Shown: positions 910-25,171 of the stretch, in pieces
Layout of the letters: each line of letters begins with the position of its first letter
Numbering within the stretch: the first letter of the stretch is position 1
IMG/VR virus record: IMGVR_UViG_3300025316_000058
Coordinates: 1-26,047 of that record
Origin: a virus
DNA length: 26,047 nucleotides
Strand: one strand, 5' to 3'
Translations under genes and position numbers: made by a program
The notes under the pieces: generated by a model
Database searches by the model: none
What the model saw: only the letters and a program-made list of their open reading frames with translations
Told to the model about the DNA's origin: nothing

Positions 910-1110
910 ATGAAACGCAAACCACGCCGCAAGCCCGACTACCTAGGAGTCGGCACCGTTATCACCACCTCCGAAGGCACGGAAATCATCATCTGCGCCG
1001 CCAACCTCGACGCGCTCAAGTCCTATCTATCTGAAGATGTCGGCCACCCGGAAGCACGCAAGGTCGCTCTCTTCCTCGGCCCCTTTGTCGAACTCCCATC
1101 CATATCCTAA
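910..1110 (+). CDS. Small uncharacterised phage protein (66 aa)
   Basis: A short basic N-terminus (MKRKPRRKPDY) is followed by a compact beta-rich segment, a helix (NLDALKSYL) and a hydrophobic tail (VALFLGPFVELP). The family is not recognised. It starts 23 bases after the preceding gene, behind a CACCCC stretch with no Shine-Dalgarno sequence. Its stop codon shares a base with the ATG of the nuclease gene (TAATG), so it is probably co-translated with the nuclease and may be an accessory to DNA processing. Codon use matches its neighbours. Confidence 0.6.
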   Translation: MKRKPRRKPDYLGVGTVITTSEGTEIIICAANLDALKSYLSEDVGHPEARKVALFLGPFVELPSIS

Positions 1111-1892
1111 TGTCCACCATCACCCGCAATCCCCACGCCTCCCACTGGTACACCCGCGACGGTGCCCCCATGCACGAGGTCATTGCCAAGTCCTCCGGCC
1201 TGCCACGCCCCACCACTGTCAGGGACGCCCGCACGCTCAACCTCATCCCGAGCGTGACCAACGTGCTGGGAATGAAGGCCAAGCCCGCGCTAATCACATG
1301 GCTCCAAGACAACGCCATCCATGCCGCCCTCAACACCCCGCGCAAGCTCGGTGAGACGGAAAGCGACTGGCATTCCCGCATCGCAGAGGAGTCCGACAAG
1401 ACCGGCAGCGAGGCCGCAGCCTGGGGCACGCTCATTCACGAGCAATGCGAGCAGTTTTCCACCGCCGGCGCGTTCATGGGCACCGGCGAAATCCTCGACT
1501 ACGTGGCAGGCTACGAGGTCTGGCACCGCGCCAACGTCGCAACGACCATCGACGCGGAAAAAAGCGTCGTCGGGGAAATCGGCTATGCCGGCCGCCTCGA
1601 CCTCCACGCCATGCTCACCGACGGTCGCCGCGCCGTCATTGATGTAAAAAGCCAGAAACTCAAGGGCAAGCCCAAGGGGAATTTCTATCCCGAGTGGGCC
1701 ATGCAGCTCGCCGCCTATGCCGATTGCCTGCGCGAGCCCGGCGACCCGCTGCCCCTGCTCATGTCCGTCATCATCCCCTCAGATACCCCCGGCCCCGTGC
1801 AGGTGAAAATCTGGGACAACGGCGAGGAAGCTCTAAAAGCCTTCCATGCCTGCTTTTGCCTGTGGTGCTTTGATAAAAATTACACCCCATGA
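1110..1892 (+). CDS. PD-(D/E)XK exonuclease, RecB/Cas4-like (260 aa)
   Basis: The motif order is that of RecB/Cas4/lambda-exonuclease-type nucleases. A helix with His110 lies in a GTLIH segment, Glu150 precedes a GRLD motif (161-164), the catalytic D-x-K is D178-V-K180, and QLAAY follows at 199-203. These residues coordinate metal and cleave DNA; phage members usually resect double-strand ends for recombination or replication. Length fits single-domain phage nucleases. It overlaps the previous gene by one base and the VRR-NUC gene by four (ATGA), so the two nucleases are translated together. The iron-sulfur cysteine set of Cas4 is not evident: there are only scattered cysteines, two near the C-terminus. 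Confidence 0.82.
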   Translation: MSTITRNPHASHWYTRDGAPMHEVIAKSSGLPRPTTVRDARTLNLIPSVTNVLGMKAKPALITWLQDNAIHAALNTPRKLGETESDWHSRIAEESDKTGSEAAAWGTLIHEQCEQFSTAGAFMGTGEILDYVAGYEVWHRANVATTIDAEKSVVGEIGYAGRLDLHAMLTDGRRAVIDVKSQKLKGKPKGNFYPEWAMQLAAYADCLREPGDPLPLLMSVIIPSDTPGPVQVKIWDNGEEALKAFHACFCLWCFDKNYTP

Positions 1893-2293
1893 GGTCCACT
1901 ATCGACTGGCGCGTCCCGGCCAAGCAAGCCTGGCAGCAAAGCGAAGCATCCCTCCAGGTCGCCATCGTCACCCGCAGCATGGCCTTGGCCGTGGCGCACC
2001 CGTCGGTGCTGCTACTCCACGCCATTCCAAACGGCGACTGGCGTGGCTGGGGAACCGGCATAAAGCTCAAGGCCCAAGGCGTCATCCCCGGCATCCCCGA
2101 CCTATGCATGCCCGTAGCCCGTGGCGGATACCACGGCTTTTACATGGAGCTAAAGAAATCCGGCGGCCATGTCTCCGATGCTCAGTGGGAGGTGATGGAA
2201 GCTCTCCACCACGAACGCTACTTCGTCCGCATCTGTAACCACCTCGGAACCGCTCTGGAAATCATCGAAAACTACCTGCTTGAAATGCCATGA
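1889..2293 (+). CDS. VRR-NUC domain nuclease (134 aa)
   Basis: The short chain carries the VRR-NUC core: an N-terminal helix with a QxSE-like element (residues 17-20), a GIPD segment (D71), then E87-L-K89 followed by a conserved Q99-W100 (SDAQWEVME). The length is typical of stand-alone phage VRR-NUC proteins, which are structure-specific nucleases of the PD-(D/E)XK superfamily. It is translationally coupled to the RecB-like gene by a 4-bp overlap. Its TGA (2291-2293) overlaps the outer core box of the first attC-like site, so this gene marks the left edge of the cassette array. It does not share the reading phase the cassette genes use at boundaries, which suggests it is backbone. Confidence 0.85.
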   Translation: MRSTIDWRVPAKQAWQQSEASLQVAIVTRSMALAVAHPSVLLLHAIPNGDWRGWGTGIKLKAQGVIPGIPDLCMPVARGGYHGFYMELKKSGGHVSDAQWEVMEALHHERYFVRICNHLGTALEIIENYLLEMP

Positions 2294-2423
2294 ACGCATA
2301 AGCGCAGACGCTGCCACCCTCTACACCCTAAAACATGGAAGATACATTCAAACTCACAGCGGAGCCGGAAGCCTCACCCAAACAAGGAGCTGGTGGCAGT
2401 CGATCTGCCGCGTCTTGTTCGCC
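2289..2423 (-). repeat. attC-like site 1
   Basis: Left core CATGAAC (2289-2295), right core GTTCGCC (2417-2423). The stem pairs CTGCCACC (2311-2318) with GGTGGCAG (2392-2399) and GCAGA (2304-2308) with TCTGC (2404-2408). The right arm carries unpaired T2400, A2403 and a C near 2409. The loop holds the ATG of the MT-A70 gene. The right core is the exact complement of 2973-2979 at the far end of the cassette. Confidence 0.8.
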
Positions 2424-2985
2424 TGTTGGTGCCATCGTCACCGATCTGCCCGCCAACCATTACCGCACCATCGTTATTGATCCGCCGTGGCCGGGACCAG
2501 GGGAACACCGGAGCATGAAGGGCGGGGGTGTGTCGATCATCCCATACAGCACGATGACGGGCATTCAGCTTGCATCAATGCGAATCATGGACATTGCCGC
2601 CGAAAGTTCGCAACTGTGGATGTGGACAACCTCGCGGAACTTCGTGGACGCTGGCCTGCTGCTGCAACTCTGGGGCTACCGCTACGCCGGAATCTTCATC
2701 TGGAAAAAGAATCCGAATCTTGGCCCATGGATTCGCCATGATTCAGAGTTTTTGATGCGTGGCGTGATGCCTGGCGTGGAAATCATTCTTCCGGCACCAC
2801 AACAGACACACGAATGGCCGCGCCCGAAACGTCATAGCGAAAAACCACCGGAAGCCTATCGAATGATTGAGGATTTTAGCCCCGGTCCTCGAATCGACAT
2901 TTTTGCGCGGCAACCCCGCCCCGGATTCGATGTGTGGGGAAACCAAGCCCCGGATTCTGATTCTGATTGTGGGGCGAACGCATAA
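2335..2985 (+). CDS. MT-A70 family adenine methyltransferase (cassette 1, 216 aa)
   Basis: The DPPW catalytic motif (residues 49-52) after a 'YRTIVID' strand identifies the MT-A70 family, which here would methylate adenine N6 in DNA using S-adenosylmethionine. It is followed by the typical 'LWMWTTSRNFVDAGLLLQ.WGY' and 'FIWKKN' strands and an RPKRHSEKP segment (about 143-151), also characteristic. Phage members protect DNA from restriction. The enzyme core begins near residue 40; the first 35 or so residues are encoded by the loop and arm of attC-like site 1 and look like low-complexity filler (SRSAASCSP). The gene crosses the right cassette boundary as ...G-A-N-A and stops at a TAA supplied by the next site's spacer. 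Confidence 0.88.
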   Translation: MEDTFKLTAEPEASPKQGAGGSRSAASCSPVGAIVTDLPANHYRTIVIDPPWPGPGEHRSMKGGGVSIIPYSTMTGIQLASMRIMDIAAESSQLWMWTTSRNFVDAGLLLQLWGYRYAGIFIWKKNPNLGPWIRHDSEFLMRGVMPGVEIILPAPQQTHEWPRPKRHSEKPPEAYRMIEDFSPGPRIDIFARQPRPGFDVWGNQAPDSDSDCGANA

Positions 2986-3062
2986 GCTCATGGATGCCGA
3001 CCAATTAACGCTTGTACTCGCGCAGGATGCTCCCCGGCATTCCATGCAGCGTCTTGTTGTCC
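2973..3062 (-). repeat. attC-like site 2
   Basis: Left core GGCGAAC (2973-2979), right core GTTGTCC (3056-3062). GCTCATGGATGCCG (2986-2999) pairs with 3035-3050 if two right-arm bases (a T in CATTCC and a C in ATGCAG) are left out. The spacers are GCATAA on the left and GTCTT on the right. This is one of the cleanest sites. Confidence 0.88.
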
Positions 3063-3946
3063 CTCTTCGTGTTCTTGTGGCTTGCGAGTCATCGGGAACC
3101 GTCCGGGATGCCTTCAACGCCCTGGGACACGTTGCCACATCCTGCGATATGCTCGAAACGGAAACACCCGGCGACCACTACACCGGGGACGTTCGGGACA
3201 TCCTCGCCAACGGCTGGGATCTAATCATCGCGCATCCTCCATGCACCTTCCTGAATGTCGCGGCAGCGTGGGAATTCTCTGACCCGGACTTCGTGAAGTT
3301 CCCCGGCGTGGGGTATCACCAGAAGGTGAAACCGGGAACGCTGGTGGGGGAAGATCGCAGGAAGGCACAAGCCGAGGCTCTGGACTTCGTGCGCCTGTTC
3401 ATGGACGCGGACTGCCCGCGTATCGCCATCGAGAATCCCGTGGGCGCAATCTCCAGCAACATCCGCAAGGCCGATCAATACGTCCACCCTCACCAGTTCG
3501 GGGATGATGCGAGCAAGACGACCGGGCTATGGATGAAAGGTCTGCCGAAGCTCAAGCCAACCGCAAACGTCCCGCCCCGGATGGTCGAGGGAAAGCCCCG
3601 GTGGGCGAACCAATGCGACAACGGCCAGAACAAGCTCACGCCCTCGCCCGACCGCTGGCGCGAACGCTCCAAGACGTATCAGGGAATCGCGGACGCGATG
3701 GCTCTGCAATGGGGCGGGGATACCGGCTGGCGGCGCGTGAGCTTCGCGGGCGACTGCGAAAGCTACGATGATGAATATGAGGACACGGGCGAACTCTGGA
3801 ACGTGTGTTCCCTGTGCAGGTGTGAATACGACACCTGCCCGTGTCCAGGGCCGACCCAAGACGGCATGGAATATGAGACGTTCCACGGCGTGCTGATGGC
3901 GCGTCCAATTCTTGGGGACGCAAAAGCGCAGCTGCCGACGCCATGA
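2990..3946 (+). CDS. Phage DNA cytosine methyltransferase-like protein (cassette 2, 318 aa)
   Basis: The fold signals are a 'VLVACESSGTVRDAF' S-adenosylmethionine-binding segment (28-42), 'DLIIAHPPCTFL' with HPPC at 82-85 (catalytic-type Cys85) and 'IENPVG' (147-152, equivalent of the ENV motif). This divergent HPPC type is often found in phages and annotated as DNA cytosine methyltransferase; activity is not proven. A cysteine-rich tail (CSLCRCEYDTCPC, 273-285) looks like a zinc site. The frame is open upstream, but ATG 2990 lies in the stem of attC-like site 2; ATG 3044, in the right arm, is the alternative start. It crosses the right cassette boundary as G-D-A (GAC in the phase where others have AAC). 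The stop overlaps the next ATG (ATGA). Confidence 0.75.
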   Translation: MDADQLTLVLAQDAPRHSMQRLVVPLRVLVACESSGTVRDAFNALGHVATSCDMLETETPGDHYTGDVRDILANGWDLIIAHPPCTFLNVAAAWEFSDPDFVKFPGVGYHQKVKPGTLVGEDRRKAQAEALDFVRLFMDADCPRIAIENPVGAISSNIRKADQYVHPHQFGDDASKTTGLWMKGLPKLKPTANVPPRMVEGKPRWANQCDNGQNKLTPSPDRWRERSKTYQGIADAMALQWGGDTGWRRVSFAGDCESYDDEYEDTGELWNVCSLCRCEYDTCPCPGPTQDGMEYETFHGVLMARPILGDAKAQLPTP

Positions 3947-4046
3947 AATGCCAAACCTGTAACGTAGAGATGTTAGGCCTGAACGGTCCCCCATGCTGCC
4001 CGAAGTGTGCGAATGGCGGCGGTCGAGCTGCCGCGTCTTATTCGGC
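3913..4046 (-). repeat. attC-like site 3
   Basis: Left core TGGGGAC (3913-3919) and right core ATTCGGC (4040-4046) are both off-consensus. The stem is well kept: GCGCAGCTGCCGACGCC (3926-3942) pairs with 4017-4035, with extra T, G and C on the right arm and one mismatch. The right spacer is GTCTT. The loop encodes a zinc-ribbon-like peptide, the N-terminus of the cassette 3 protein. Confidence 0.72.
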
Positions 4047-4833
4047 GTCTTCATCTTCTCCCGAAAGCGATACCGAACATGCATTAAGCAAGGCTGTTGC
4101 TGGGGGTGCTTATCGAGGATTTGTTACATACGCATTCGCCCGCCGACTTGAGCGCGAGCGCAATGAAGAGGCCGGATTCCGCAGCCAGTGGGCTGACAAA
4201 TTCCAAAAAGCCGACGCCGCGCTCCAAGAGGCTTTGGGAATCGCCAGAATCGCCCTCGAAGCGATTGAAACAATCTACGGCCACGCGCAGCACTGTGACC
4301 AATGCCAATCGTTCGAGATCGCCCAAGAGTGCCGAAACATGACGCACGGGCTAGACTGTCTGTCTCAATTTTCTTTGGAGAACGTCAATATCCTGCCATC
4401 GGCAGCACAAATCAAGACCATGAATAGTGAAACTAAAAGCGAAACGCCGGTTGGCAGCGATGCCTTGTTCGGCTTCTGGATTTCCGAGCATTACCCGACG
4501 CCGGAATCCGCCAACCTGAAATGCGAGGAGGCAACAACGACCATGTGCGTGGCTTTCCCTGAGTTGGTCCGTATTCGCGGGAGTGCGATGGTGGGGGTGG
4601 ACTTCCGGCCTCATTGGTGGTGCGAAACACCGTCTGGTACAGTGATCGACCCGACAGCGCATCAATGGCCCGGAGGCATCTTGTTCTACGAACGCCTACA
4701 ATCCGAGGAAGAACCATACGGGAAATGTCTGAATTGCGGTGATCTTCTATTCCGGTCTCGCGGTGATGGGTCATTTCATTGCTCTTATTGTATGCCGAAC
4801 GTCAATGTCCAGCCGCGCCCGCACAACCACTGA
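3943..4833 (+). CDS. Cassette 3 protein, open through attC site 4 into cassette 4 (296 aa)
   Basis: The frame begins with a zinc-ribbon-like segment (CQTC at 3-6, CCPKC at 18-22) encoded by the loop of attC-like site 3. A Ser-rich stretch from the site arm follows, then a helical region with ARRLERERNE and a CDQC pair (about 112-115). I do not recognise the family. At 4381-4383 it crosses the cassette boundary as E-N-V and continues, without a stop, through site 4 to Met160, the start of the cassette 4 protein (4420). The native cassette 3 product probably ends around residue 147; here the neighbour supplies no stop, so a fusion is predicted. The start overlaps the preceding stop (ATGA). Confidence 0.6.
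   Translation: MKCQTCNVEMLGLNGPPCCPKCANGGGRAAASYSASSSSPESDTEHALSKAVAGGAYRGFVTYAFARRLERERNEEAGFRSQWADKFQKADAALQEALGIARIALEAIETIYGHAQHCDQCQSFEIAQECRNMTHGLDCLSQFSLENVNILPSAAQIKTMNSETKSETPVGSDALFGFWISEHYPTPESANLKCEEATTTMCVAFPELVRIRGSAMVGVDFRPHWWCETPSGTVIDPTAHQWPGGILFYERLQSEEEPYGKCLNCGDLLFRSRGDGSFHCSYCMPNVNVQPRPHNH
4377..4473 (-). repeat. attC-like site 4
   Basis: Left core GGAGAAC (4377-4383), right core GTTCGGC (4467-4473). ATCCTGCCATCGGC (4390-4403) pairs with GCCGGTTGGCAGCGAT (4446-4461), leaving out a T and a C on the right arm, with one wobble. The spacers are GTCAAT on the left and GCCTT on the right. Both arms are nearly identical to those of site 13. Confidence 0.87.
4420..4833 (+). CDS. 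Cassette 4 zinc-ribbon protein (137 aa)
   Basis: ATG 4420 lies in the loop of attC-like site 4, and residues 10-18 (PVGSDALFG) are encoded by the site's right arm. The body is unrecognised: a region with FRPHWWCETPSGTVIDPT suggests a small phage protein of the 'HWWC..PDG.IVDPT' kind. It is followed by a C-terminal zinc ribbon (CLNCGDLLF, then CSYC). The frame crosses the right cassette boundary as H-N-H and stops at once (CACTGA, in site 5). It is also the C-terminal part of the longer frame starting at 3943. Confidence 0.65.
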   Translation: MNSETKSETPVGSDALFGFWISEHYPTPESANLKCEEATTTMCVAFPELVRIRGSAMVGVDFRPHWWCETPSGTVIDPTAHQWPGGILFYERLQSEEEPYGKCLNCGDLLFRSRGDGSFHCSYCMPNVNVQPRPHNH

Positions 4834-4898
4834 CACCGAATCAACACCATGAATCAAACTACCAAACCCACGGCGTCGGCTGGCACGCCTTGTTCTGT
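4821..4898 (-). repeat. attC-like site 5 (degenerate stem)
   Basis: Left core GCACAAC (4821-4827), right core GTTCTGT (4892-4898). The right arm keeps the common pattern (GGCGTCGGCTGGCAC, spacer GCCTT), but the left arm pairs only partly (CACTGACACCG with mismatches). The right core is the exact complement of ACAGAAC at 5592-5598, the far end of the same cassette. Confidence 0.65.
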
Positions 4899-5640
4899 GT
4901 CTTTGGGGGTTGATCTCCACTTGGGCGAGTGCATCGAAACCATGCAGGCCATGCCATCGAGCCACGTTGACGGCGTGGTGACTGATCCGCCCTACCTGAT
5001 CGGCGCAATCTCGACCGGCGACGCGAAGAGCAAGGGCGGATCATGGGTGGACTTGATGAACGCCTCCTACTGGTATGGTGCCTGGATGAATGAAGCCTGG
5101 CGCGTGCTCAAGCCCGGTGGATTCCTGGTGATATTCACGAACTGGCGGAGCGTCCCGATGCTGCTGAAAGCCTGCTCTGACAAATACATTCCGGCATCGT
5201 CACTCGCCTGTTGGGATAAAGAGTGGATCGGCCCGGCCGGCCCGTCGCAACTCCGCCCGACATACGAAATGATTCTCTTCTGTGCCAAGGATGGCGCGAA
5301 GATCGACAACCGTTCAAGGTCGGACGTGTTCCGCTACAAATGGATGGCCGCCCACTCGGGCCAATCCGGTCACCCGGCACAAAAGCCCGTGCCACTGCTG
5401 AAAGAGATTGTCGAGTTGGTTACCAAGCCCGGCGGGCTGGTCCTCGACCCATTCACCGGGAGCGGCACAACCGGCATTGCCGCCATTCAGGCAGGCCGCC
5501 GATTCATCGGGATTGAGGGCGACGATGAACGCCACGGGGAGGCGCTTGACCGCCTCCGATCCGCCTCTGACCCGATGCATAAAATGTCTCCACAGAACGC
5601 CGCTGCGCATCCGCGCCAAGACTCACCAACCAAACAATAA
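4849..5640 (+). CDS. DNA N6-adenine/N4-cytosine methyltransferase, DPPY type (cassette 5, 263 aa)
   Basis: The DPPY catalytic motif (46-49, in VVTDPPYLIG) precedes 'WRVLKPGGFLVIF', a TRD-like middle, 'HPAQKPVPLLKEIVEL' and the AdoMet-binding 'DPFTGSGTTGIAA' near residue 200. This order is that of the N4/N6 amino-methyltransferase family common in phages, where it protects DNA from restriction. The enzyme core starts near residue 20 (VDLHLGECIETM); residues 1-19, including TPCS, are encoded by the loop and right arm of attC-like site 5. The gene crosses the right cassette boundary as Q-N-A and takes its last 14 or so residues and its stop (TAA 5638-5640) from site 6. Confidence 0.92.
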   Translation: MNQTTKPTASAGTPCSVSLGVDLHLGECIETMQAMPSSHVDGVVTDPPYLIGAISTGDAKSKGGSWVDLMNASYWYGAWMNEAWRVLKPGGFLVIFTNWRSVPMLLKACSDKYIPASSLACWDKEWIGPAGPSQLRPTYEMILFCAKDGAKIDNRSRSDVFRYKWMAAHSGQSGHPAQKPVPLLKEIVELVTKPGGLVLDPFTGSGTTGIAAIQAGRRFIGIEGDDERHGEALDRLRSASDPMHKMSPQNAAAHPRQDSPTKQ

Positions 5641-5697
5641 TATGCCCAATACACAAACAACCGCCAGAGCGGCGTCGGATGCCGCGTCTTGTTCGGC
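5592..5697 (-). repeat. attC-like site 6
   Basis: Left core ACAGAAC (5592-5598), right core GTTCGGC (5691-5697). GCGCATCCGCGCC (5605-5617) pairs fully with GGCGTCGGATGCCGC (5671-5685) once a T and a C on the right arm are left out. The spacers are GCCGCT on the left and GTCTT on the right. The loop holds the stop of the methyltransferase gene and the ATG of the next cassette. Confidence 0.9.
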
Positions 5698-5848
5698 GTC
5701 TCATTTTGAGGGATGCGTAAGGTGCGCGAGTAATGGATGGGATACGGAGCGGCTAGGACCCTGCCCCAAATACCCCAACTGCGGCGATTCATTCCAGCAG
5801 AACGCTGGTGATGTGCCGCAGGCCAAAAGAAACGATTATGGAAAGTGA
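5642..5848 (+). CDS. Cassette 6 small zinc-binding protein (68 aa)
   Basis: ATG 5642 lies in the loop of attC-like site 6. The first 22 residues (TTARAASDAASCSAS) are encoded by the site and look like a junction tag. The body is tiny: a cysteine pair (GCVRCASNG) and a second one (GPCPKYPNCGDS) could form a zinc knuckle. It crosses the right boundary as Q-N-A and ends in the loop of site 7, past the ATG of the next gene. The family is not recognised. The cassette body is only about 110 bp, near the lower limit for a coding cassette. Confidence 0.55.
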   Translation: MPNTQTTARAASDAASCSASHFEGCVRCASNGWDTERLGPCPKYPNCGDSFQQNAGDVPQAKRNDYGK

Positions 5849-5890
5849 AATTGAAGCGTCCGACCTGTCGGCTCGACCCCCTTGTTCTCC
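5797..5890 (-). repeat. attC-like site 7
   Basis: Left core GCAGAAC (5797-5803), right core GTTCTCC (5884-5890). GTGCCGCAGG (5813-5822) pairs with CCTGTCGGC plus TC (5864-5874), with an unpaired T and one mismatch. The outer three pairs are lost but the register is kept. The right core is the exact complement of GGAGAAC at 6056-6062. Confidence 0.75.
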
Positions 5891-6527
5891 GTCTTTTCAG
5901 GCGGGGTGCTCGGGGATGTGGTATAAAAACCCCCGCGCTGCCGGAACCGTTGATGCGGTGCGGTGCGACCACTGCAACGTCGCACTCAACCGGGAGGACG
6001 GCGAACCCGGACTGCCGTGGATTCGCCGCGTAGCGCAATGGTGGAACCTTCATTCGGAGAACGCCACTGTGACCGAGCCTCACCACCAACCAACCAATAA
6101 TCAAATGACAAACAACGAAACAACCAAGCCCGCAGCGTCGGCATCCATGCCTTGTTCTGCATCTGATACCATCGCCCTGGTGCGCCGATATAACCGCTGG
6201 AGACGCGGAGATGAAACCCTTGAAATGGAACGCCCGAAAGTCATTGGAGAGGCTCTGGACGCTATCTGCGACATCGCGGAGAGGCTCGACTGTGAGCGCG
6301 ATTCAATGAAGGAGGTGATTAGTTCCATGCAGAATGAACTACTCACACTGCGCGACTGGATCGAGCGGGCGGTTCCTGTGCTCAATGTGGCGTGCTGCAT
6401 CGTTATTGAGGACTCGTTGGAACGTCTGAATGAGATAGCCGGGTGTCGCGGATTGCTCGAATTGTGTCCGGTGAATTTTCCGCAGAACGATGAGCGCACG
6501 CACGGTGCGCGAAAGGAGGGTCTATGA
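5838..6527 (+). CDS. Cassette 7 protein, open through attC site 8 into cassette 8 (229 aa)
   Basis: ATG 5838 is in the loop of attC-like site 7; GTG 5808 and ATG 5811 upstream are in the same frame but lie in the stem. After an N-terminal tag from the site (SARPPCSPS), the body has a CDHC pair (about residues 43-46) and a Trp-rich helix (WIRRVAQWWNLH); it may be a zinc-ribbon protein, family unknown. At 6060-6062 the frame crosses the cassette boundary as E-N-A, meets no stop in site 8 and runs into Met90, the start of the cassette 8 protein. A 229-aa fusion is therefore possible, although both halves look like separate small proteins. Confidence 0.55.
   Translation: MESEIEASDLSARPPCSPSFQAGCSGMWYKNPRAAGTVDAVRCDHCNVALNREDGEPGLPWIRRVAQWWNLHSENATVTEPHHQPTNNQMTNNETTKPAASASMPCSASDTIALVRRYNRWRRGDETLEMERPKVIGEALDAICDIAERLDCERDSMKEVISSMQNELLTLRDWIERAVPVLNVACCIVIEDSLERLNEIAGCRGLLELCPVNFPQNDERTHGARKEGL
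6056..6160 (-). repeat. attC-like site 8 (degenerate stem)
   Basis: Left core GGAGAAC (6056-6062), right core GTTCTGC (6154-6160). The right arm has the common pattern (GCGTCGGCATCCAT, spacer GCCTT), but pairing to the left arm is weak (around ACCGAGC). The right core is the exact complement of GCAGAAC at 6482-6488, and the left core is that of GTTCTCC at 5884-5890, so both neighbouring cassettes are correctly bounded. Confidence 0.62.
6105..6527 (+). CDS. Cassette 8 conserved phage protein (140 aa)
   Basis: ATG 6105 lies in the loop of attC-like site 8. Residues 10-20 (AASASMPCSAS) come from the site's right arm. The body (IALVRRYNRWRRGDETLEM, then a long heptad-like helix around CDIAERLDCERDSMKEVISSMQ) resembles a widespread small phage protein with an NRWRRG motif and a coiled coil, of unknown function. 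It crosses the right boundary as Q-N-D and ends with a TGA that overlaps an ATG at 6524 in site 9. It is in frame with, and fused to, the cassette 7 frame starting at 5838. Confidence 0.65.
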   Translation: MTNNETTKPAASASMPCSASDTIALVRRYNRWRRGDETLEMERPKVIGEALDAICDIAERLDCERDSMKEVISSMQNELLTLRDWIERAVPVLNVACCIVIEDSLERLNEIAGCRGLLELCPVNFPQNDERTHGARKEGL

Positions 6528-6577
6528 AAAAGAAATTGAAAAGCTTATGCACCGTTGCGTGGCGCGGCTTGTTCGCT
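6482..6577 (-). repeat. attC-like site 9
   Basis: Left core GCAGAAC (6482-6488), right core GTTCGCT (6571-6577). GCGCACGCACGGTGC (6494-6508) pairs with GCACCGTTGCGTGGCGC (6549-6565) when a T and a G on the right arm are left out, giving 15 pairs. The right spacer is GGCTT. The loop contains AGGAGG (6514-6519) four bases before ATG 6524. The right core matches AGCGAAC at 7291-7297. Confidence 0.92.
6514..6526 (+). promoter_or_regulatory. Shine-Dalgarno plus ATG in the loop of site 9
   Basis: AGGAGG at 6514-6519 is followed four bases later by ATG (6524-6526), which overlaps the stop of the cassette 8 gene (ATGA). This is one of only two strong ribosome binding sites noticed in the window. On the plus strand it leads into the antisense of the ClpP gene, so it seems to serve a reading frame that the present cassette, with its reversed gene, does not provide. 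Confidence 0.6.
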
Positions 6578-7279
6578 ATTGTCGATACTGGTGATGTTGT
6601 CCGTCAGTGGGATCGTGATGCAGCTAGTGGCCTCCTCGGTGGAATGCTGGACCGGCATGTTGAATTGCTGCTGAACAGCCCTTGGTGTAGCCAACCCGAT
6701 AGAAGCATCTTCATGAATTACGCTCAAATCCGCACCAAACGGGAAGAGCTTAGGAGCGATCTTCTGGACGAGTCCGTAATCCTTGGCCTCCTGTGGTGTG
6801 AGAGTGATTCGTGTCTCCATGTCGTTGATGATCGAATCAACATCCTTCCCTGTCGTGTCAGAAATCACTCGTGCAATGTTCTGATAGTCGATCCGAAGTC
6901 CCTTGAGCTTCTCCTCCATGTCCTTCTCGTCAAGGCGCTGCTGGTTGTTGAATGTCATGGAAACTCCGTGAATAAGGAATCGTGCGTTGGGAACGGATAT
7001 TCGCCGATCTCCGCTACAGAATATCACTACTCCGATGGAATCAACGCTCCCGAAGTTGTAAGTGATGACCTCTATAGGAGCACCCTTGAGGAAGTTGTAG
7101 ATCGAGAGGCCATGGAAAACCGAACCTCCTGGAGAGGAGATCATAAGATGGAGCTTCTTGAGTCCGGTCTGGAGCTTGGAGTCAATGACTCTCAGCAAGG
7201 ATGCGGCCGTCTGTGGGTTCACAGGTGCCATGAAGCGTATCCACGCTTCGTTGGTCGGGTAGGGAGGTTCTGTGGACAT
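6545..7279 (-). CDS. ClpP-like serine protease (cassette 9, 244 aa)
   Basis: ClpP/crotonase-fold protease. 'LMISSPGGSV' (oxyanion glycines 51-52) is followed by 'SVDSIGVVIF' with Ser81, 'ARFLIHGVS' with His104, and 'INDMETRITLTPQEAKDYGLV' with Asp153. The His-Asp spacing of 49 equals that of E. coli ClpP, so the triad is intact. Phage ClpP-like proteins usually mature capsids, but here it lies far from the capsid genes as the sole minus-strand gene in the array. The ATG is 12 bases inside the R' box of site 10, and the TAA falls in the left arm of its own attC (site 9), whose stem encodes the last residues (AAPRNGA). This is textbook integron cassette layout. The tail after about residue 195 is not ClpP-like. 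Confidence 0.9.
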   Translation of the reverse strand: MSTEPPYPTNEAWIRFMAPVNPQTAASLLRVIDSKLQTGLKKLHLMISSPGGSVFHGLSIYNFLKGAPIEVITYNFGSVDSIGVVIFCSGDRRISVPNARFLIHGVSMTFNNQQRLDEKDMEEKLKGLRIDYQNIARVISDTTGKDVDSIINDMETRITLTPQEAKDYGLVQKIAPKLFPFGADLSVIHEDASIGLATPRAVQQQFNMPVQHSTEEATSCITIPLTDNITSIDNSEQAAPRNGA

Positions 7280-7290
7280 GAATTTTCTTT

Positions 7291-7388
7291 AGCGAACGAT
7301 AAAATCCAGCCATGACTGCCCGCCCTACCGCTCCGCTCTCGCCATCGACTCCCGCCGGGCAGTCATTGGCTGCGATGCCTTGTTCGCT
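7291..7388 (-). repeat. attC-like site 10 (best example)
   Basis: AGCGAAC (7291-7297) and GTTCGCT (7382-7388) are perfect complements. Inside, 7304-7322 pairs without mismatch with 7356-7376 once two right-arm bases (one T of CATTGG and the C of CTGCGA) are left out, giving 19 pairs. Unpaired spacers are GATAAA (left) and GCCTT (right). Read on the minus strand, this is R''-5-3-extrahelical-6-extrahelical A, as in classical attC sites. The loop is 33 nt. Confidence 0.95.
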
Positions 7389-8079
7389 TTCGGCGTTGGA
7401 CTTGTTCTGCTGCGCCGGCGGGGCTGGGATGGGACTGCATCAAGCGGGCTTCAACGTCACCGGCGTGGATATCGTGGATCGGCCAAACTACCCGTTCACG
7501 TTCATCCTCGGGGACGCGCTGGAAGCCGACCTATCGGGCTTCGACTTCGTGTGGGCATCGCCTCCGTGCCAAGCTCATACAACGCTCAAGCACCGCACCG
7601 GGAAGGATTACGAATGCTTCATCACGCGCACCCGTGAAAAGCTCAAGGCGTGGGGTGGACCATACATCATCGAAAACGTGATGGGATCGCCGCTGGAAAA
7701 TCCAATCATGCTCTGCGGATCATCCTTCGGGCTGGGTGTGCGCCGTCATCGGCTCTTCGAGTCGAACGTGTTCTTGTGGCCGGCGGAGTGCCGCCACGAC
7801 CTGCAGCCCGAGCCGCTGGACATCACCGGCACTGGATCGCGCCGGAAGGGCGAAAGGCTCGACGGCAAAGGCGGAAACTCGCGGAAGCCTCGGAACCTCC
7901 AAGAAGCGCGGGACGCGATGGAAATGCCATGGGCTACGCGCAAGGAAATCTCACAAGCCATCCCGCCGGCCTTCTCGCGATACCTGGGCGAGCAGGTGGC
8001 GAAATTCTGTAAAGCGAACGCTTCGGATGTGCCGCAGGGCGCGTCCGAGGTGCCAAGCCCAGCCAAAGAGAAGCCTTAG
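7312..8079 (+). CDS. DNA (cytosine-5) methyltransferase (cassette 10, 255 aa)
   Basis: A C5-methyltransferase with motif I 'ALDLFCCAGGAGMG' (28-41), the PCQ loop 'WASPPCQ' (81-87; catalytic Cys86), 'YIIENV' (motif VI, about 118) and 'VRRHRLFES' (motif VIII). It is short, as phage Dcm-type enzymes are, with a reduced target-recognition domain. Likely role: protection from restriction. The enzyme core starts within a few residues of Met22 (ATG 7375), which lies in the right arm of attC-like site 10; ATG 7312 is the longer alternative, coding a Pro/Ser-rich tag from the loop. It crosses the right boundary as A-N-A and ends in the loop of site 11. Confidence 0.93.
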   Translation: MTARPTAPLSPSTPAGQSLAAMPCSLSALDLFCCAGGAGMGLHQAGFNVTGVDIVDRPNYPFTFILGDALEADLSGFDFVWASPPCQAHTTLKHRTGKDYECFITRTREKLKAWGGPYIIENVMGSPLENPIMLCGSSFGLGVRRHRLFESNVFLWPAECRHDLQPEPLDITGTGSRRKGERLDGKGGNSRKPRNLQEARDAMEMPWATRKEISQAIPPAFSRYLGEQVAKFCKANASDVPQGASEVPSPAKEKP

Positions 8080-8107
8080 CCCTGTCGGCACCATCCGATT
8101 GTTATGC
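8013..8107 (-). repeat. attC-like site 11
   Basis: Left core AGCGAAC (8013-8019), right core GTTATGC (8101-8107). GATGTGCCGCAGGGC (8026-8040) pairs with 8079-8094 when a T and a C on the right arm are left out. The left core is the exact complement of GTTCGCT at 7382-7388, extending to nine bases. The loop contains the stop of the cytosine methyltransferase gene. Confidence 0.88.
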
Positions 8108-8123
8108 TCTGAATTTTTTGAAC
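8101..8123. other. Empty cassette 11 (about 23 bp, no gene)
   Basis: The right core of site 11 (GTTATGC, 8101-8107) and the left core of site 12 (TTTGAAC, 8117-8123) are separated by only nine bases. Two attC-like sites therefore lie back to back without cargo. The boundary heptamers do not match each other, so this could be a cassette remnant after deletion rather than an intact mobile unit. Confidence 0.5.
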
Positions 8124-8225
8124 CGCCACCGACATGAAAAATGATATTCCTATTCTTGATCTCCCTCATTCTGATTCTTCGTCTTTACGACCCGTGTCGC
8201 CGGTAAAAGTCCCGCCTTGTTCGGC
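8117..8225 (-). repeat. attC-like site 12 (degenerate stem)
   Basis: Left core TTTGAAC (8117-8123), right core GTTCGGC (8219-8225), right spacer GCCTT as in the other sites. Pairing is limited to a short core (ACCGACA against TGTCGCCGGT with mismatches). The site is recognised mainly by its right arm and position. Confidence 0.5.
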
Positions 8226-8499
8226 TGGATTCTTCTGGTGGCGGGCGACTCCCGAAAAACCGTGGAGAATGGTCCAGATCGTGGACTTTGCTCCCGAGGG
8301 CGAACCGGATCTCTGCGCTTACGACCTGGAACTGAAAGAGTGGGGAGGGCGGACACTGAGAACATGGGCCAAGTGCGAACCAACTGGCGAATGGATAGAA
8401 ATCCGCAAGCCTGAAATACCTAAAGAGATGGATGCCAGACGGATGCGCGAACACGTCTGCGCGATGAACCGCGATATGGATTATGTGCGGAGCATGTGA
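8134..8499 (+). CDS. Cassette 12 small phage protein (121 aa)
   Basis: ATG 8134 lies in the left stem/loop of attC-like site 12. Residues 1-31, including VPPCSAG, are encoded by the site. The body (FFWWRATPEKPWRMVQIVD, then RTWAKCEPTGEWIEI) resembles small phage proteins with a beta-rich 'G-x-YWWR..PW' pattern that are common next to methyltransferase or DNA-modification genes; the function is unknown. It is the only plus-strand cassette gene that stops before the right boundary (TGA 8497-8499), and it is followed at once by a Shine-Dalgarno sequence for a leader ORF that does cross the boundary. Confidence 0.65.
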   Translation: MKNDIPILDLPHSDSSSLRPVSPVKVPPCSAGFFWWRATPEKPWRMVQIVDFAPEGEPDLCAYDLELKEWGGRTLRTWAKCEPTGEWIEIRKPEIPKEMDARRMREHVCAMNRDMDYVRSM

Positions 8500-8500
8500 C

Positions 8501-8570
8501 AGGAGGATTTATGATTGAGCAGAACGCCCAATATCCTGCCACCGGCAGCAACCGAAACGAAAATGAGTAA
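8501..8570 (+). CDS. Leader ORF across attC site 13 (19 aa, with Shine-Dalgarno)
   Basis: AGGAGG at 8501-8506 precedes ATG 8511 by four bases. The 19-codon frame crosses the cassette boundary in the common phase (E-Q-N-A), runs through the left arm and loop of site 13 and stops at TAA 8568-8570, overlapping the start of the next gene (ATG 8563). It looks like a translational-coupling leader that delivers ribosomes to the cassette 13 gene. The interval includes the ribosome binding site; coding is 8511-8570. Confidence 0.5.
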
Positions 8571-8616
8571 TGAAAATGAAATGATGTTGCCGGTTGGCAG
8601 CGATGCCTTGTTCGCT
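8519..8616 (-). repeat. attC-like site 13
   Basis: Left core GCAGAAC (8519-8525), right core GTTCGCT (8610-8616). ATCCTGCCACCGGCA (8533-8547) pairs fully with TGCCGGTTGGCAGCGAT (8588-8604) when a T and a C on the right arm are left out. The right spacer is GCCTT. The right core is the exact complement of AGCGAAC at 8895-8901. The arms are almost identical to site 4. Confidence 0.92.
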
Positions 8617-8916
8617 GAATTTGTCCGTCGTCACGCGCTTGCGATTGATGATCTGACTCAAGCGCAACTTGCCGAAGCAATTCGTCAGGCAATGCCGGAC
8701 TTCCGGCGAAACATCCACGCCAACGCTCAATCCGTGGTCTATCTCCCCGGGAGCGAAGCAGATCGCTGGAAGACTCTCTACCACGAATTACTGTGGGCTG
8801 TTGAATCGGTTCATGAAGGCGAGTCACGGCACGATACTGCGCTTCGATATATTCGTTCCGTGGAATCGCGTTGTGAGGGTCCATCTTGTGATCCAGCGAA
8901 CAGTGTTATTATGTGA
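8563..8916 (+). CDS. Cassette 13 uncharacterised protein (117 aa)
   Basis: ATG 8563 lies in the loop of attC-like site 13, in frame with further upstream codons but overlapping the leader ORF stop, which supports this start. Residues 9-20 (LPVGSDALFAEF) come from the right arm, as in the cassette 4 protein. The body is a helical protein (DDLTQAQLAEAIRQAM; later WKTLYHELLWAVESVHEGES) that I do not recognise. It crosses the array's right edge as A-N-S and stops 15 bases later in non-cassette sequence. Confidence 0.65.
   Translation: MSNENEMMLPVGSDALFAEFVRRHALAIDDLTQAQLAEAIRQAMPDFRRNIHANAQSVVYLPGSEADRWKTLYHELLWAVESVHEGESRHDTALRYIRSVESRCEGPSCDPANSVIM
8895..8901 (-). other. Lone R' core box: edge of the cassette array
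   Basis: AGCGAAC (GTTCGCT on the minus strand) is the exact complement of the right core of site 13 and closes cassette 13, but no partner arm or stem follows. In an integron this is where the first cassette abuts attI or a secondary integration site. The sequence beyond it (8902-8968) has no recognisable attI features. Confidence 0.6.
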
Positions 8917-8968
8917 CTTATGCCAAGATTGATCCATCAACCAAGTCGCGCTTACCGCCTCAAAATGA

Positions 8969-9256
8969 GTGCGGCAGGCAAAAAAATCCCAGGCGGTACA
9001 GGCAGCCCGGCGGGCGGCCTGCATCACGCCGGAAATGCTCCAGGACATGACCGCCAATCCTCCGCCGTGCCCCGGCGAGCCGATCCGCTCGCTGGAGTGG
9101 TGCAACATCCAGACCGGAGCCATCCTCCGCTGGACGCTGCTGCGCGGCCCGCGCGCCAACAACTACATCCTGCGCACCCCCGACGGCCGCCACAGCAAGC
9201 CCCATGGTATGGCCTGGATAATGTCCCACCTCCGCCCAATCCTGCTGAGTCATTGA
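8969..9256 (+). CDS. Small uncharacterised phage protein (95 aa)
   Basis: The open frame has a GTG at 8969 and an ATG at 9035 (Met23); the start is uncertain. The best-folded part is C-terminal: 'EWCNIQTGAILRWTLLRGPRANNYILRTPDGR' followed by 'PHGMAWIMSHLRPILL', which reads like a beta hairpin and a helix of a small nucleic-acid-associated protein. No family is recognised. It is the first backbone gene after the cassette array and lies 28 bases upstream of the helicase gene. The overlapping frame starting at 8920 is Pro/Arg-rich shadow sequence. Confidence 0.55.
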   Translation: MRQAKKSQAVQAARRAACITPEMLQDMTANPPPCPGEPIRSLEWCNIQTGAILRWTLLRGPRANNYILRTPDGRHSKPHGMAWIMSHLRPILLSH

Positions 9257-9284
9257 TTATTTTTCTGAATATCAACCAACCTAA

Positions 9285-10796
9285 ATGCTCCTCCGACCCT
9301 ACCAACAAGACTTCGTCAACTCCGTGGCCCGTGGCTTCAATGCCAATCACATGCGCCAGCTAGGCGTGCTGCCCACCGGCGGTGGCAAGACCATCGTTTT
9401 CGCCCACATCGCGGCCAGATTCCACACGAAACGTCAAGAGCGCACGCTAGTTCTAGCCCACCGGGAGGAACTCATTGAGCAGGCAGCCGACAAAATCCGC
9501 AAGGCCACCGGCATCGAAGCCAGCATCGAGAAAGCCGAGCGCCGGGCCGACCGCGAGGCGGCGGTGGTGGTCGCCTCGATCCAGACGATGCAGGGCGAGC
9601 GTCTAGCCACCTGGCCAAAAAATCACTTCGGGCTGATCGTGTGCGATGAGGCCCACCACGTCCTAGCCGACCAGTGGCAGGCCACCCTCGCTCATTTCGA
9701 TTCCCGCGTATTGGGTGTGACTGCCACGCCCGACCGGGGGGACAAGAAGAATCTCGCCGTCTATTTCCAAAACCTCGCTTACGAGTGCAATCTGCTCGAC
9801 CTCATCGGCAAAGGATTTCTCTCCCCCATCAGGATCAAGTCGGTTCCACTCAGGATCGACCTCAACGCAGTCAAGCAGACCGCCGGGGACTATGACAGCA
9901 ACCAGCTCGACGCGGCCATCACGCCCTACCTCAAGGAGATTGCCCGTTATCTAGCCACCGAGTGCCGGGACCGCAAAAAGATCGTCGTTTTCCTTCCGCT
10001 CATCCAGACCAGCAAGCGCTTCGTCGAGGAGTGCATGGCCGCCGGCATCTCCTCCTACCACATCGACGGCGCGTCGCCAGACCGCAAGGCCATCCTCTCC
10101 GATTTCTCCGCCGGCAATTTCCGCCTGCTTTCCAACGCCATGCTGCTCACCGAGGGCTGGGACGAGCCGGGCGTGGATTGCCTGCTGGTGCTGCGGCCCA
10201 CCAAGTCACGCGGGCTATACTCCCAGATGGTCGGTCGCGGCACCCGCGTATGCGAGGGCAAGGACCACCTCCTGCTGCTGGATTTCCTCTGGCTGCACGA
10301 GCGCCACAATCTGGCCAAGCCCGCATCGCTGGTCGCCCGCACCAAGGCGGAGGAGGATGCCATCACCGAGGCGCTCACGACCGCCGCCGACAAAGACCTT
10401 GGGGAAGCCGTCGAGCAAGCCGAGAACGAGCGCGAGGCGGCGCTCATCCGCACCATCGCCGAGAACGCCCGCAAGGCCGAGCGGTACTTGTCCATCGAGC
10501 ACGTCGGCGCGTTGCTCAAAGACCAGAAAATCCGCGATTACTCGCCCGTCTTCGGTTGGGAGACCGCCCCGGCCAGCATGGCCCAAACTCAAGTCCTGTC
10601 CCGCTTCGGCCTCAAATGCGCCACCAAGGGCGAGGCGTCCATGGTTATGGATCGCCTCTTCAACCGCTCCAAGGCCAAGCTCGCCACCGTCAAGCAGTTG
10701 CAATGGCTCGTCCGCTTCAAGCACCCGTCGCCCGAAACCTGCACCGCCGCCGAGGCAAAAGTTTTCCTCGACACCCGCTTCAAAAAAACCGTTTGA
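9285..10796 (+). CDS. SF2 DEAD/DEAH-box helicase (503 aa)
   Basis: Classical superfamily 2 helicase of the UvrB/ResIII type, with 'LRPYQQDFV' (Q-like motif, residues 3-11), Walker A PTGGGKT (30-36), 'VLAHREEL' (motif Ia), DEAHH (121-125), 'VTATPDR' (motif III) and 'QMVGRGTRV' (motif VI). It unwinds or remodels DNA at the cost of ATP during phage replication or recombination; partners are probably the two nucleases upstream of the cassette array and the primase-helicase downstream. The C-terminal 150 residues after the helicase core contain a charged helix (EAVEQAENEREAALIRTIAENARKAERYL) and a small unrecognised domain. The start at 9285 follows an A/T-rich leader without a Shine-Dalgarno sequence. 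Confidence 0.93.
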   Translation: MLLRPYQQDFVNSVARGFNANHMRQLGVLPTGGGKTIVFAHIAARFHTKRQERTLVLAHREELIEQAADKIRKATGIEASIEKAERRADREAAVVVASIQTMQGERLATWPKNHFGLIVCDEAHHVLADQWQATLAHFDSRVLGVTATPDRGDKKNLAVYFQNLAYECNLLDLIGKGFLSPIRIKSVPLRIDLNAVKQTAGDYDSNQLDAAITPYLKEIARYLATECRDRKKIVVFLPLIQTSKRFVEECMAAGISSYHIDGASPDRKAILSDFSAGNFRLLSNAMLLTEGWDEPGVDCLLVLRPTKSRGLYSQMVGRGTRVCEGKDHLLLLDFLWLHERHNLAKPASLVARTKAEEDAITEALTTAADKDLGEAVEQAENEREAALIRTIAENARKAERYLSIEHVGALLKDQKIRDYSPVFGWETAPASMAQTQVLSRFGLKCATKGEASMVMDRLFNRSKAKLATVKQLQWLVRFKHPSPETCTAAEAKVFLDTRFKKTV

Positions 10797-18921: not shown

Positions 18922-20436
18922 TCAGCTCACGGTCGGGAACGAGATGCCGGGGTAGGTGATCGCGTGACGCATGCGCACAATCGCCGGGTGGCGTTGCTTG
19001 CGGTCGCGGCGCAGCGATTGGCCGAACACGCTCGTAATGTAGCGGTCGGTAATCATGCCGCCGTTGAGCGTTTCCTGCGAGCGGTTGGCGCGGTACTTGC
19101 CATAGCCGCGCAGCAGGAACGACTGGCCCAGGAACAACGTGTCACCGAACGGCACGCCCTTGCTCGTGCAGGGGACGATCAGCGAACCGGCGGGATGGGC
19201 GGACGTATGCTTGCCCGCCCAGACTCCGGTATCCCAGACGACGCTGCCGATGGTCGTCTCGTTGATGCCGGTGGTGCCTACGGCCAGACGTTTGGTCACG
19301 ACGATCTTGTTGCCGTCGTTGCCAGTGGTGTAGGCGTACATCCCGAATTTCCCGGCATCCTCTCCGCTGGTGTTGCAGACGAGGAAGTATTTTTCCTCGG
19401 TATCGAAGAGCACACCGGCAGAGTTGGGGAAGTCGCTAGTCGCATACGCTCCGGTGTCCACGAACTTGTAGGCGTGGCCGGCGAAGTATTTGAAGAACAA
19501 CTTGGCGGTCTTGGCCGCATCCGTCGCATTACCGCCGCCCTTGATCGTCAGTGCGTCGCCGTTGGTGTCGGCCGCTACCACAACCCCGAGGAAGGCCTTA
19601 GGGTTGAGGAAGCTGCCCACCGCGCCCACGCCGTCGTGGTCAATCGGGTTGTACGGCAGGATCGTGTGACCGTCGATGGCAGCGTAGCCGCCTTTGAAGA
19701 TCGTGTTGGCACGGCCCCGCACGTCGCCGGTCTGGAGAACGGTCTTGTAAGTGGGATCGGTCTTGAGGCTCAGCAGCGCCGTTTCGGTTGACACCACGGT
19801 TTGCGACCAGATCGGTTGGTCCGATCCGGCACCCGCGATGTTCGCCGGGAGTCCGCCCAGTGGCTTCATGAACTGGCCGCCGGTGACCACCTCGTCCCAA
19901 CCCAGCGTGTCGCCGCTGGCCAGAGTGTCGAGCGTCTTGCCGTTGGCGTAGAGCACGTTTTCCGTGTTGAGCTTGAGCATCGTCGTCGCGAACACCTGGT
20001 CGGTCTTGAACCGCCCCAGCCAATCGCCGAGCTTGACGTTGAACTTGCTGACGATTTCGCCGCGCATGCCCATCACTTCTTCCATGCGCTCGCTCGAACG
20101 GACCGCATTGCGCACAAAGTCGCATTTCAGCCCGTAGGACGCGACGTCCACGGTTTCAAAGTCGTCGGCTGTGGCAAACAATTCTTCACCGTATTTCGGC
20201 TCGTTGTAGAAGCCGCTTTCCGTGGTGAAGGTCATTTCCTGGCCCTGGCCTTTGGCAAGGTCGCTTTGGGTCCAGATGAGGCTGCGTTCGGTGCCCCCTT
20301 CCATCTGCTGGAAGAAGTCCGCGTTGGCTTCGGCGACTTGGGCTCCTTTGCTCCAGAGCTTGCGCACTGATGCCGAGTCCATGGCCGCGAGGGTGGTCCC
20401 GGTATTCGGGCTGGTTTGGTCTTGATATTGAGACAT
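18922..20436 (-). CDS. Major capsid protein, N4-gp56-like (504 aa)
   Basis: The pattern fits the N4-gp56 / DUF4043-type capsid family. An N-terminal region 'ASVRKLWSKGAQVAEANADFFQQMEG' is followed by 'MTFTTESGFYNEPKYGEELFATADDFETVDVASYGLKCDFVRNAV' and a C-terminal end 'DTLFLGQSFLLRGYGKYRANRSQETLNGG.ITDRYITSVFGQSLRRDRKQRHPAIVRMRHAI', typical of the HK97-fold members of this group. It follows the scaffold-like gene, as capsid genes usually do. ATG 20436 is preferred over the codon at 20496 because the extra 20 residues are not conserved-looking and lie in the leader with a small hairpin. The start context is TACCACCATG. Confidence 0.82.
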   Translation of the reverse strand: MSQYQDQTSPNTGTTLAAMDSASVRKLWSKGAQVAEANADFFQQMEGGTERSLIWTQSDLAKGQGQEMTFTTESGFYNEPKYGEELFATADDFETVDVASYGLKCDFVRNAVRSSERMEEVMGMRGEIVSKFNVKLGDWLGRFKTDQVFATTMLKLNTENVLYANGKTLDTLASGDTLGWDEVVTGGQFMKPLGGLPANIAGAGSDQPIWSQTVVSTETALLSLKTDPTYKTVLQTGDVRGRANTIFKGGYAAIDGHTILPYNPIDHDGVGAVGSFLNPKAFLGVVVAADTNGDALTIKGGGNATDAAKTAKLFFKYFAGHAYKFVDTGAYATSDFPNSAGVLFDTEEKYFLVCNTSGEDAGKFGMYAYTTGNDGNKIVVTKRLAVGTTGINETTIGSVVWDTGVWAGKHTSAHPAGSLIVPCTSKGVPFGDTLFLGQSFLLRGYGKYRANRSQETLNGGMITDRYITSVFGQSLRRDRKQRHPAIVRMRHAITYPGISFPTVS

Positions 20437-20460
20437 GGTGGTAGTTTGGTTGGTTGGTAT

Positions 20461-20485
20461 TGAAATCCCGACGTTTTGTCGGAAT
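20461..20485 (-). promoter_or_regulatory. Small hairpin in the leader of the capsid gene
   Basis: On the minus strand CCGAC and GTCGG flank AAAAC (around 20468-20482), 30 or so bases upstream of the capsid ATG. It has no U-tract, so it is not a terminator; it may be a translation or processing element. This is a short feature and could be chance. Confidence 0.3.
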
Positions 20486-20530
20486 CGGAATGCCACCGGC
20501 TAACCACCGTGCTAACAGGTCAAGAAGCGC

Positions 20531-24642: not shown

Positions 24643-25139
24643 CAGCCGGTTATGTTATAGACGATGGTCGCGTCGGTTTGCTGGCCAGTCGTTAGAGCGC
24701 TGTATGCTGACAGGGTTAGGTCGATCCAAGTTTTTCCGGTTCCCGCAGATCCGGTTGGACCAGCCGGACCCGCAGCTCCGGTTGGACCAGCCGGACCAGC
24801 CGGACCAGCCGGACCAGCCGGATCAGCCGGACCAGTCGGACCAGCCGGACCAGCCGGACCAGCCGGACCCTGAACGCCAGCAGTTCCAGCCGCACCTGTA
24901 GGTCCAGCAAGGCCCGCTATCCCGGAGATTCCTTGATTTCCGGTTGGTCCGGGCGCTCCTTGAGCTCCTGCGTTTCCAGTCGCACCCGGATACACCTGCC
25001 ACACGGCAGGCAGGGCATTCAATGGAATGACAGTTGACGCCGCTGGAATCACCGCACCGGCAGGCAATCCGGCCACGATCCGAGCCAGATTCTCCTCCCG
25101 CTCCTGCGCCATCTTGATCTTGTAAAATGATGCGGCCAT
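24642..25139 (-). CDS. Collagen-repeat fibre protein (165 aa)
   Basis: After a short helix ([18 protein letters not shown]) and a hydrophobic/Pro segment, about 80 residues are Gly-X-Y triplets ([13 protein letters not shown] ... [13 protein letters not shown]) ending near TGSAGT, followed by a C-terminal globular end ([28 protein letters not shown]). Such trimeric collagen-like stalks are common in phage tail fibres. One triplet is broken: GPA-DPA-GPA, a Gly-to-Asp change. ATG 25139 is used; ATG 25208 is also in frame but overlaps the upstream gene by 37 bases. Confidence 0.8.
24745..24986 (-). repeat. 9-bp tandem repeats encoding the Gly-X-Y stalk
   Basis: The plus strand shows GGACCAGCC-type 9-mers repeated almost without interruption between about 24767 and 24870, with more diverged triplets up to 24986. 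The unit encodes Gly-Pro-Ala or Gly-Pro-Thr on the minus strand. The Gly-to-Asp change lies at 24821-24823 (GATCAG in place of GACCAG). Confidence 0.9.
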
Positions 25140-25171
25140 AGCGGATTGCGTTGACTCAAACGTGGGCAGGA

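Follow-up and report, generated by a model that had tools for sequence, protein, structure and literature searches.

An integron-type attC array with reversed cassettes in the genome of a phage

Integrons are regarded as bacterial devices that phages occasionally acquire, and classical cassettes have the gene first and its attC recombination site after it, both on one strand. Here we describe an array of integron-type attC sites and cassette genes at positions 2289 to 8901 of a linear virus record of 26,047 bp (IMGVR_UViG_3300025316_000058), the whole of which is called the window below. Phage integrons have been reported before. Qi et al. 2023 (PMC9892861) described three complete integrons, an In0, and 17 CALINs (clusters of attC sites with no integron integrase nearby) in phages, including TJE1, P12002L, PH101, Va_90-11-286_p16, and M16-3. 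In that study, the phages with attC arrays included virulent as well as temperate ones, and DNA methyltransferase genes were frequent among the cassettes. Of six phage sites tested there in E. coli, five recombined with attI1. A first-pass annotation of the window had held that no phage of this kind was described, which that report shows to be wrong.

The 6.6-kb array sits between a resolvase-like gene and a helicase gene, with phage genes on either side, and the exonuclease, helicase, primase, and major capsid genes of the window identify its carrier as a phage. It contains 11 attC sites, all on the minus strand within 2289 to 8616, together with a decayed site and an attI-like R′ core. In the 5′ to 3′ direction of the minus strand, a site consists of an R″ core ending in AAC, a 5-nt spacer, 3 bp, an unpaired base, 6 bp, an unpaired A, and a loop, followed by 6 bp, 3 bp, a spacer of 5 to 7 nt, and an R′ core beginning GTTC. 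We scanned the minus strand for this geometry (AAC, N5, 3 bp, 1 nt, 6 bp, loop, 6 bp, 3 bp, N5-7, GTT) and found 10 sites in the array with at least 8 of 9 pairs, 7 of them with all nine. The extrahelical A was present in all 7 of the latter, though the scan did not demand it. In 200 dinucleotide shuffles, the mean number of sites with 9 of 9 pairs was 0.045 and none combined full pairing with the A; the count of fully paired sites also fell from 7 to 0 once the left spacer was set to any length other than 5 nt. The classical minus-strand register that the first-pass annotation had proposed matches this geometry.

The seven fully paired sites lie at 2973 to 3062, 4377 to 4473, 5592 to 5697, 6482 to 6577, 7291 to 7388, 8013 to 8107, and 8519 to 8616. 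We also built a covariance model on 29 phage sites, 7 of them from the window, and this model recovered 11 window sites at E ≤ 6.4e-6. The site at 8519 to 8616 had the highest score (76.3 bits), and four of the sites recovered were not in the training set: 4794 to 4898 (46.3 bits), 2289 to 2423 (43.1 bits), 5797 to 5890 (41.8 bits), and a weaker one at 6056 to 6160 (30 bits). In the site at 2289 to 2423, the first of the array, the R′ core and the resolvase-like gene's stop codon overlap. The decayed minus-strand site, at 3913 to 4046, has GTC and GAAT cores and scores 14.5 bits (E 0.043). Where thirteen sites had been claimed, 11 stand as intact and one as decayed; a hairpin at about 8106 to 8225 received no support from the model, and the core at 8901 belongs to the attI-like site. 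That site (8895 to 8915, minus strand, ATAATAACACTG^TTC) is a lone R′ core (8898 to 8901) with no R″ partner; it forms the right end of the array and resembles the ATAATTAACTG^TTC beside the integrase gene, intI, in related phages (G024). An Rfam search of the window returned nothing at gathering score. Overall, the window sites have the AAC-GTT cores, unpaired spacers, and stem with two extrahelical bases on one arm that are expected of attC. The R′ consensus GTTRRRY is absent, since every intact site reads GTTC, and R′ cores departing from it are also found in many sites of bacterial integrons in the likely host family. As a cluster of attC sites with no integron integrase nearby, the array is a CALIN, in a window that is itself a fragment.

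The cassette genes of the window run on the plus strand and the attC sites on the minus strand, which is the opposite of the classical arrangement; a ClpP-like gene is the exception. We compared polarity at the cassette level, applying a single model and a single orientation rule and taking the longest open reading frame (ORF) between neighboring sites. Arrays of this phage group contained 62 reversed, 2 classical, and 6 ambiguous cassettes, whereas arrays in genomes of the Akkermansiaceae family and other Verrucomicrobiota contained 2 reversed, 58 classical, and 7 ambiguous cassettes and 2 with none (Fisher p = 3e-30, a value to be read as a clear split and not as a probability, because cassettes are not fully independent). 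This comparison supersedes an earlier single-site test (37:9 versus 0:16). Of the 62 reversed cassettes, 52 have their predicted start codon inside the attC, mostly in its loop or L′ arm, and the gene extends to about the next R′ core, so that N-terminal residues such as VGSDALFG and ASAGTPCS are predicted to be encoded by attC. In another virus record (L043, IMGVR_UViG_3300038660_000106), the array genes oppose the flanking phage genes yet remain reversed relative to attC, showing that polarity is a property of the cassettes; the array of this record (5943 to 9736) also has partly canonical R′ boxes (GTTAGAT). Reversed cassettes whose genes are predicted to start inside attC look new: our literature search, most subscription journals and preprints being outside it, found no paper describing this arrangement.

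At least 12 further viral records have two or more sites, as found by a pattern scan of viral contigs and the covariance model. The viral status of G021, G024, G009, L089, L090, and L091 was checked through terminase, head, portal, or tail genes; for the remaining records, it is the IMG/VR classification. An intI gene beside attI and an array, the makeup of a complete integron, is present in G021, G024, G022, and L089 and absent from the window; in these complete arrays, intI adjoins attI at the array end, in classical geometry relative to attC. An integron integrase is encoded in G021, G013, L089, L090, and L091, and a divergent one in G014, G022, and G024. The G021 protein (323 aa) scores 287 bits against TIGR02249, above the cutoff of 265, and retains the catalytic residues and the IntI-specific insertion, whereas the divergent G024 protein (321 aa) scores 194 bits, below it; for both, the best PDB match is the integron integrase 2a3v. 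In a phylogenetic tree, the G021-type integrases and one from an Akkermansiaceae metagenome-assembled genome (MAG) contig form a clade with 100/100 support on a long stem, apart from the chromosomal integrases of Akkermansiaceae, and they are 36 to 47% identical to bacterial integrases. The G024 integrase is a long branch of unsure placement. We also noted that Virus Rctr41k (L120, KX853513.1) has an annotated xerD-like gene (4680 to 5678) whose product has 39% identity to the phage integron integrase, with the RRHHI motif retained; neither the scan nor the model found a convincing attC near it.

Traces of cassette movement come from pairs of these relatives. G022 and G024, from different metagenomes, have flanks that are 99.955% identical over 2199 bp and 100% identical over 1245 bp; their cassettes differ in content and order, and one 753-bp cassette (99.87% identity) occupies different places in the two. 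A second assembly, G014, repeats the G024 cassette order. G009 and G021 have in common a single 947-bp methyltransferase cassette (98.5% identity) and nothing else in the region; in G009, this cassette adjoins the attI-like site. In every junction inspected, the change of partner falls at the G^TT core. Reordered and exchanged cassettes with junctions in GTT are the footprint of integron recombination. At the locus of the window itself, L004 (72% helicase identity) has no array, its resolvase stop overlapping the helicase start with nothing between, and L003 (also 72%) has two attC sites there, with cassette genes other than those of the window, including a helicase. A 9 of 9 match at 2434 to 2536 of L003 lacks the usual AACAAG and was set aside as chance. 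No relative was found with the same gene order minus the sites, and the extrahelical positions are conserved in homologous sites; the opposite of either result is what the first-pass annotation had named as able to overturn its proposal.

The array genes of the window, all on the plus strand except the ClpP-like gene, begin with one for an MT-A70-type DNA methyltransferase (2335 to 2985; PF05063, 9.4e-21; phrog_359), which starts inside the first attC and stops in the next R′ core. It is followed by a gene of a phage DNA methyltransferase family (2990 to 3946; phrog_757, 8.6e-58) and by two joined cassette genes, listed as a single ORF that runs in frame through an attC (3943 to 4833), with a second start at 4420 inside that attC. 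Genes for an N6/N4 DNA methyltransferase (4849 to 5640; PF01555, 6.8e-34; phrog_67) and a 68-aa protein without assigned function (5642 to 5848) each start inside an attC, and the ORF at 5838 to 6527 continues in frame through the attC at 6056 to 6160, with a second start at 6105. The ClpP-like or head maturation protease-like gene (6545 to 7279, minus strand; PF00574, 1e-27; phrog_94) is the only Pfam-supported cassette gene of classical polarity in the window and ends inside the attC at 6482 to 6577. A C5 DNA methyltransferase-like gene (7312 to 8079; phrog_363, 1.4e-33) again starts inside an attC, and two genes without assigned function complete the array, at 8134 to 8499 and at 8563 to 8916; the latter starts inside an attC and continues through the attI-like core. 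In ORF 7312 to 8079, residues 1 to 26 match the attC of another phage, the rest being unmatched in that record, and the 36% identity of ORF 8134 to 8499 to a cassette gene in related phages begins at residue 28, directly beyond the attC-coded part. These match boundaries suggest that gene bodies and attC sites are freely combined.

The cassette genes of the window thus encode four DNA methyltransferases of four families (MT-A70, phrog_757, N6/N4, and C5-like), one ClpP-like protein, and otherwise proteins without assigned function. In other arrays, the cargo includes methyltransferases of the C5 and N6/N4 types, a Mom-family protein, and a PAPS-reductase-like protein. What these genes most likely have in common is anti-restriction, and the methyltransferase-rich set would mainly counter host restriction.

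Taken together, the array is very probably the cassette part of a phage-adapted integron. The geometry measured against shuffles, the covariance model, and the relatives agree on an integron-type attC array with swappable genes inside a phage genome; the first-pass annotation was right in substance on this point and had not noticed the reversed polarity, the starts inside attC, or the integrase in relatives. In the mechanism we propose, the unit would be an attC followed by its gene in the direction of phage transcription, and cassettes would be excised and reinserted in the form of folded single strands by an integron integrase of the phage lineage, supplied by the unsequenced part of the genome, a co-infecting relative, or a host integron. 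New cassettes would enter at attI, at the 8.9-kb end. Because the genes point toward attI, a promoter there could not drive them, and read-through from the phage operon would be the simplest source of expression in place of a Pc promoter, each cassette having its own translation start within attC. A wider proposal is that the phages infecting Akkermansiaceae-like bacteria possess an integron lineage of their own and a private pool of back-to-front cassettes, in which attC serves both for recombination and as a translation-start leader, phage-operon read-through replaces Pc, and anti-restriction genes are swapped by the phage integrase; on balance we favor it, with modest confidence.

Several points weigh against the array being part of a working phage integron. 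The starts inside attC are ORF calls from sequence. The sites used to train the covariance model were preselected for pairing, which makes its pair counts partly circular, and the folding energies of single sites are mostly unexceptional against shuffles (z from -3.9 to +0.9), so the evidence lies in geometry and comparison and not in stability. No tyrosine recombinase is encoded in the window, a 26-kb fragment, and mobilization of its array is accordingly only inferred. A near-identical record of the same phage (L002) has an identical array, and cassette movement is therefore observed only in relatives. A real array in a lineage with no integrase supply at all, a frozen relic, would account for these last two points, for the decayed attC, and for G004, a 60-kb capsid relative with 8 attC sites and no integrase. 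We consider this rather unlikely, as geometry is kept in 11 sites, the attI-like core is intact, and the G009 contig, with no recognized tyrosine recombinase, nevertheless has beside its attI-like site the cassette that is 98.5% identical to that of G021.

Capture of a stretch of host chromosomal integron, now inert baggage, is very unlikely. Earlier phage integrons were attributed to host capture (PMC9892861), and the same covariance model finds large integrons in the likely host family, with 62 attC in one Akkermansiaceae-family genome. However, captured arrays would retain host polarity, against the observed 62 reversed to 2 classical cassettes in phages and 2 to 58 in host-type arrays; the G021-type phage integrases form a clade of their own, distant from the bacterial ones; and cassettes are common to, and shuffled between, phages. 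It is more improbable still that the hairpins serve phage genes as transcription terminators or translation-leader elements and merely resemble attC. They are intergenic and contain start codons, as such elements might, but their two extrahelical bases stand at fixed positions between conserved AAC and GTT cores, the model that finds them also matches bacterial integrons with intI, and in relatives intI and attI adjoin the arrays and the edges of exchanged cassettes fall inside the GTT core. The phage-adapted integron remains the reading that we prefer, and it points to phages operating, in a version of their own, a gene-capture system regarded as bacterial.

The hosts are likely Akkermansiaceae and relatives. 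The closest nonphage integrase (77% identity) is in an Akkermansiaceae MAG, and a 63% match to the capsid protein occurs in another Akkermansiaceae-family genome, which also has 62 attC sites; this makes the host likely and not proven, since MAG contigs may be binned phage DNA. A search among named phages gave no match to the capsid protein, and the host is for this reason deduced from the other evidence. In the Akkermansiaceae-family genome with the 63% capsid match, G058 (L131-L136, L143, L144), the 62 attC matches, of classical polarity and spread over many contigs, are apparently a very large chromosomal integron. An Akkermansiaceae MAG contig (L071, 581 to 1552) has a phage-type intI (77%), an attI-like site, and an upstream ORF of reversed polarity among bacterial-looking genes, and may be a prophage remnant or a phage integron inserted in the chromosome. 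Another Akkermansiaceae MAG, G027, includes a phage contig with minor head and neck proteins and 2 attC sites of reversed polarity (G027:C247; L109, L138, L139), while attC sites on its other contigs are classical.

Outside the array, a phage exonuclease gene (1110 to 1892, plus strand; phrog_298) encodes a protein 72% identical to the exonuclease of the intI-bearing G014 and G022, making these relatives of the window phage. The left flank of the array is the Holliday-junction-resolvase-like gene (1889 to 2293, plus strand; phrog_824/5702) and the right flank the helicase gene (9285 to 10796, plus strand; phrog_16), the two genes that adjoin each other in the array-less L004. Between the attI-like site and the helicase gene lies a small ORF (8969 to 9256, plus strand), and G009 has a 58% identical ORF at the equivalent position. 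The major capsid protein is encoded at 18922 to 20496 (minus strand; phrog_334), and a predicted structural-region protein at 24642 to 25208 (minus strand) contains collagen-like GPAGPAGP repeats. Positions 118 to 363 of the window and 1 to 1080 of L002 consist of tandem CACGACACGACAACCGTTTTCCAACAC-like repeats, and the copies are not the same in these two records, which are identical in other respects. At its left end, the window begins with 137 bases that recur at positions 770 to 906 (97.8% identity), so this contig end may be an assembly break within a repeat.

Compared with known systems, the flipped polarity contradicts the textbook arrangement, in which attC is found 3′ of its gene; the cassettes cannot, in consequence, simply be bacterial cassettes in transit, and attC sites with translation signals that encode protein N termini are predicted. 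The phage CALINs shown by Qi et al. are small and the complete integrons look captured from hosts, whereas the window has 11 intact sites. Our geometry scan recovers two sites of TJE1, and neither scan nor model gave a convincing match in the published array region of P12002L. The TJE1 CALIN is classical (gene, then attC), in contrast to the reversed genes and separate phage integrase clade of the window's group, so reversal is a trait of this group and not of phages generally. The sedentary chromosomal integrons of Akkermansiaceae and other Verrucomicrobiota have the same attC family as the phages, with similar core boxes and attC sites of about 85 to 130 nt; they differ in that 58 of their 60 called cassettes have the gene ahead of an attC in the same orientation, and their integrases are only 36 to 44% identical to the G021 phage integrase. 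Reverse integrons of the Treponema denticola type (PMC7691350, PMC4909258) have co-directional integrase and cassette genes, as do the intI-bearing phage relatives. However, in Treponema it is intI that is flipped and the ORF still ends at R″, whereas in the phages intI, attI, and attC are classical and the ORFs are flipped toward attI. With the class 1 integron, IntI1, and aadA-type attC, the phage sites have in common the register of spacers, 3 bp, extrahelical base, 6 bp, and extrahelical A, and differ in R′ (GTTRRRY versus GTTC), in gene polarity, and in an integrase that is about 42 to 45% identical. This phage group appears to run an integron of its own, and by trading cassettes, many of them for DNA modification, its members would have modular rearming against restriction. 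Phage attC arrays were already known; what sets this group apart is its reversed cassettes with predicted starts inside attC, a phage integrase clade of its own, and the signs of cassette exchange between phages.

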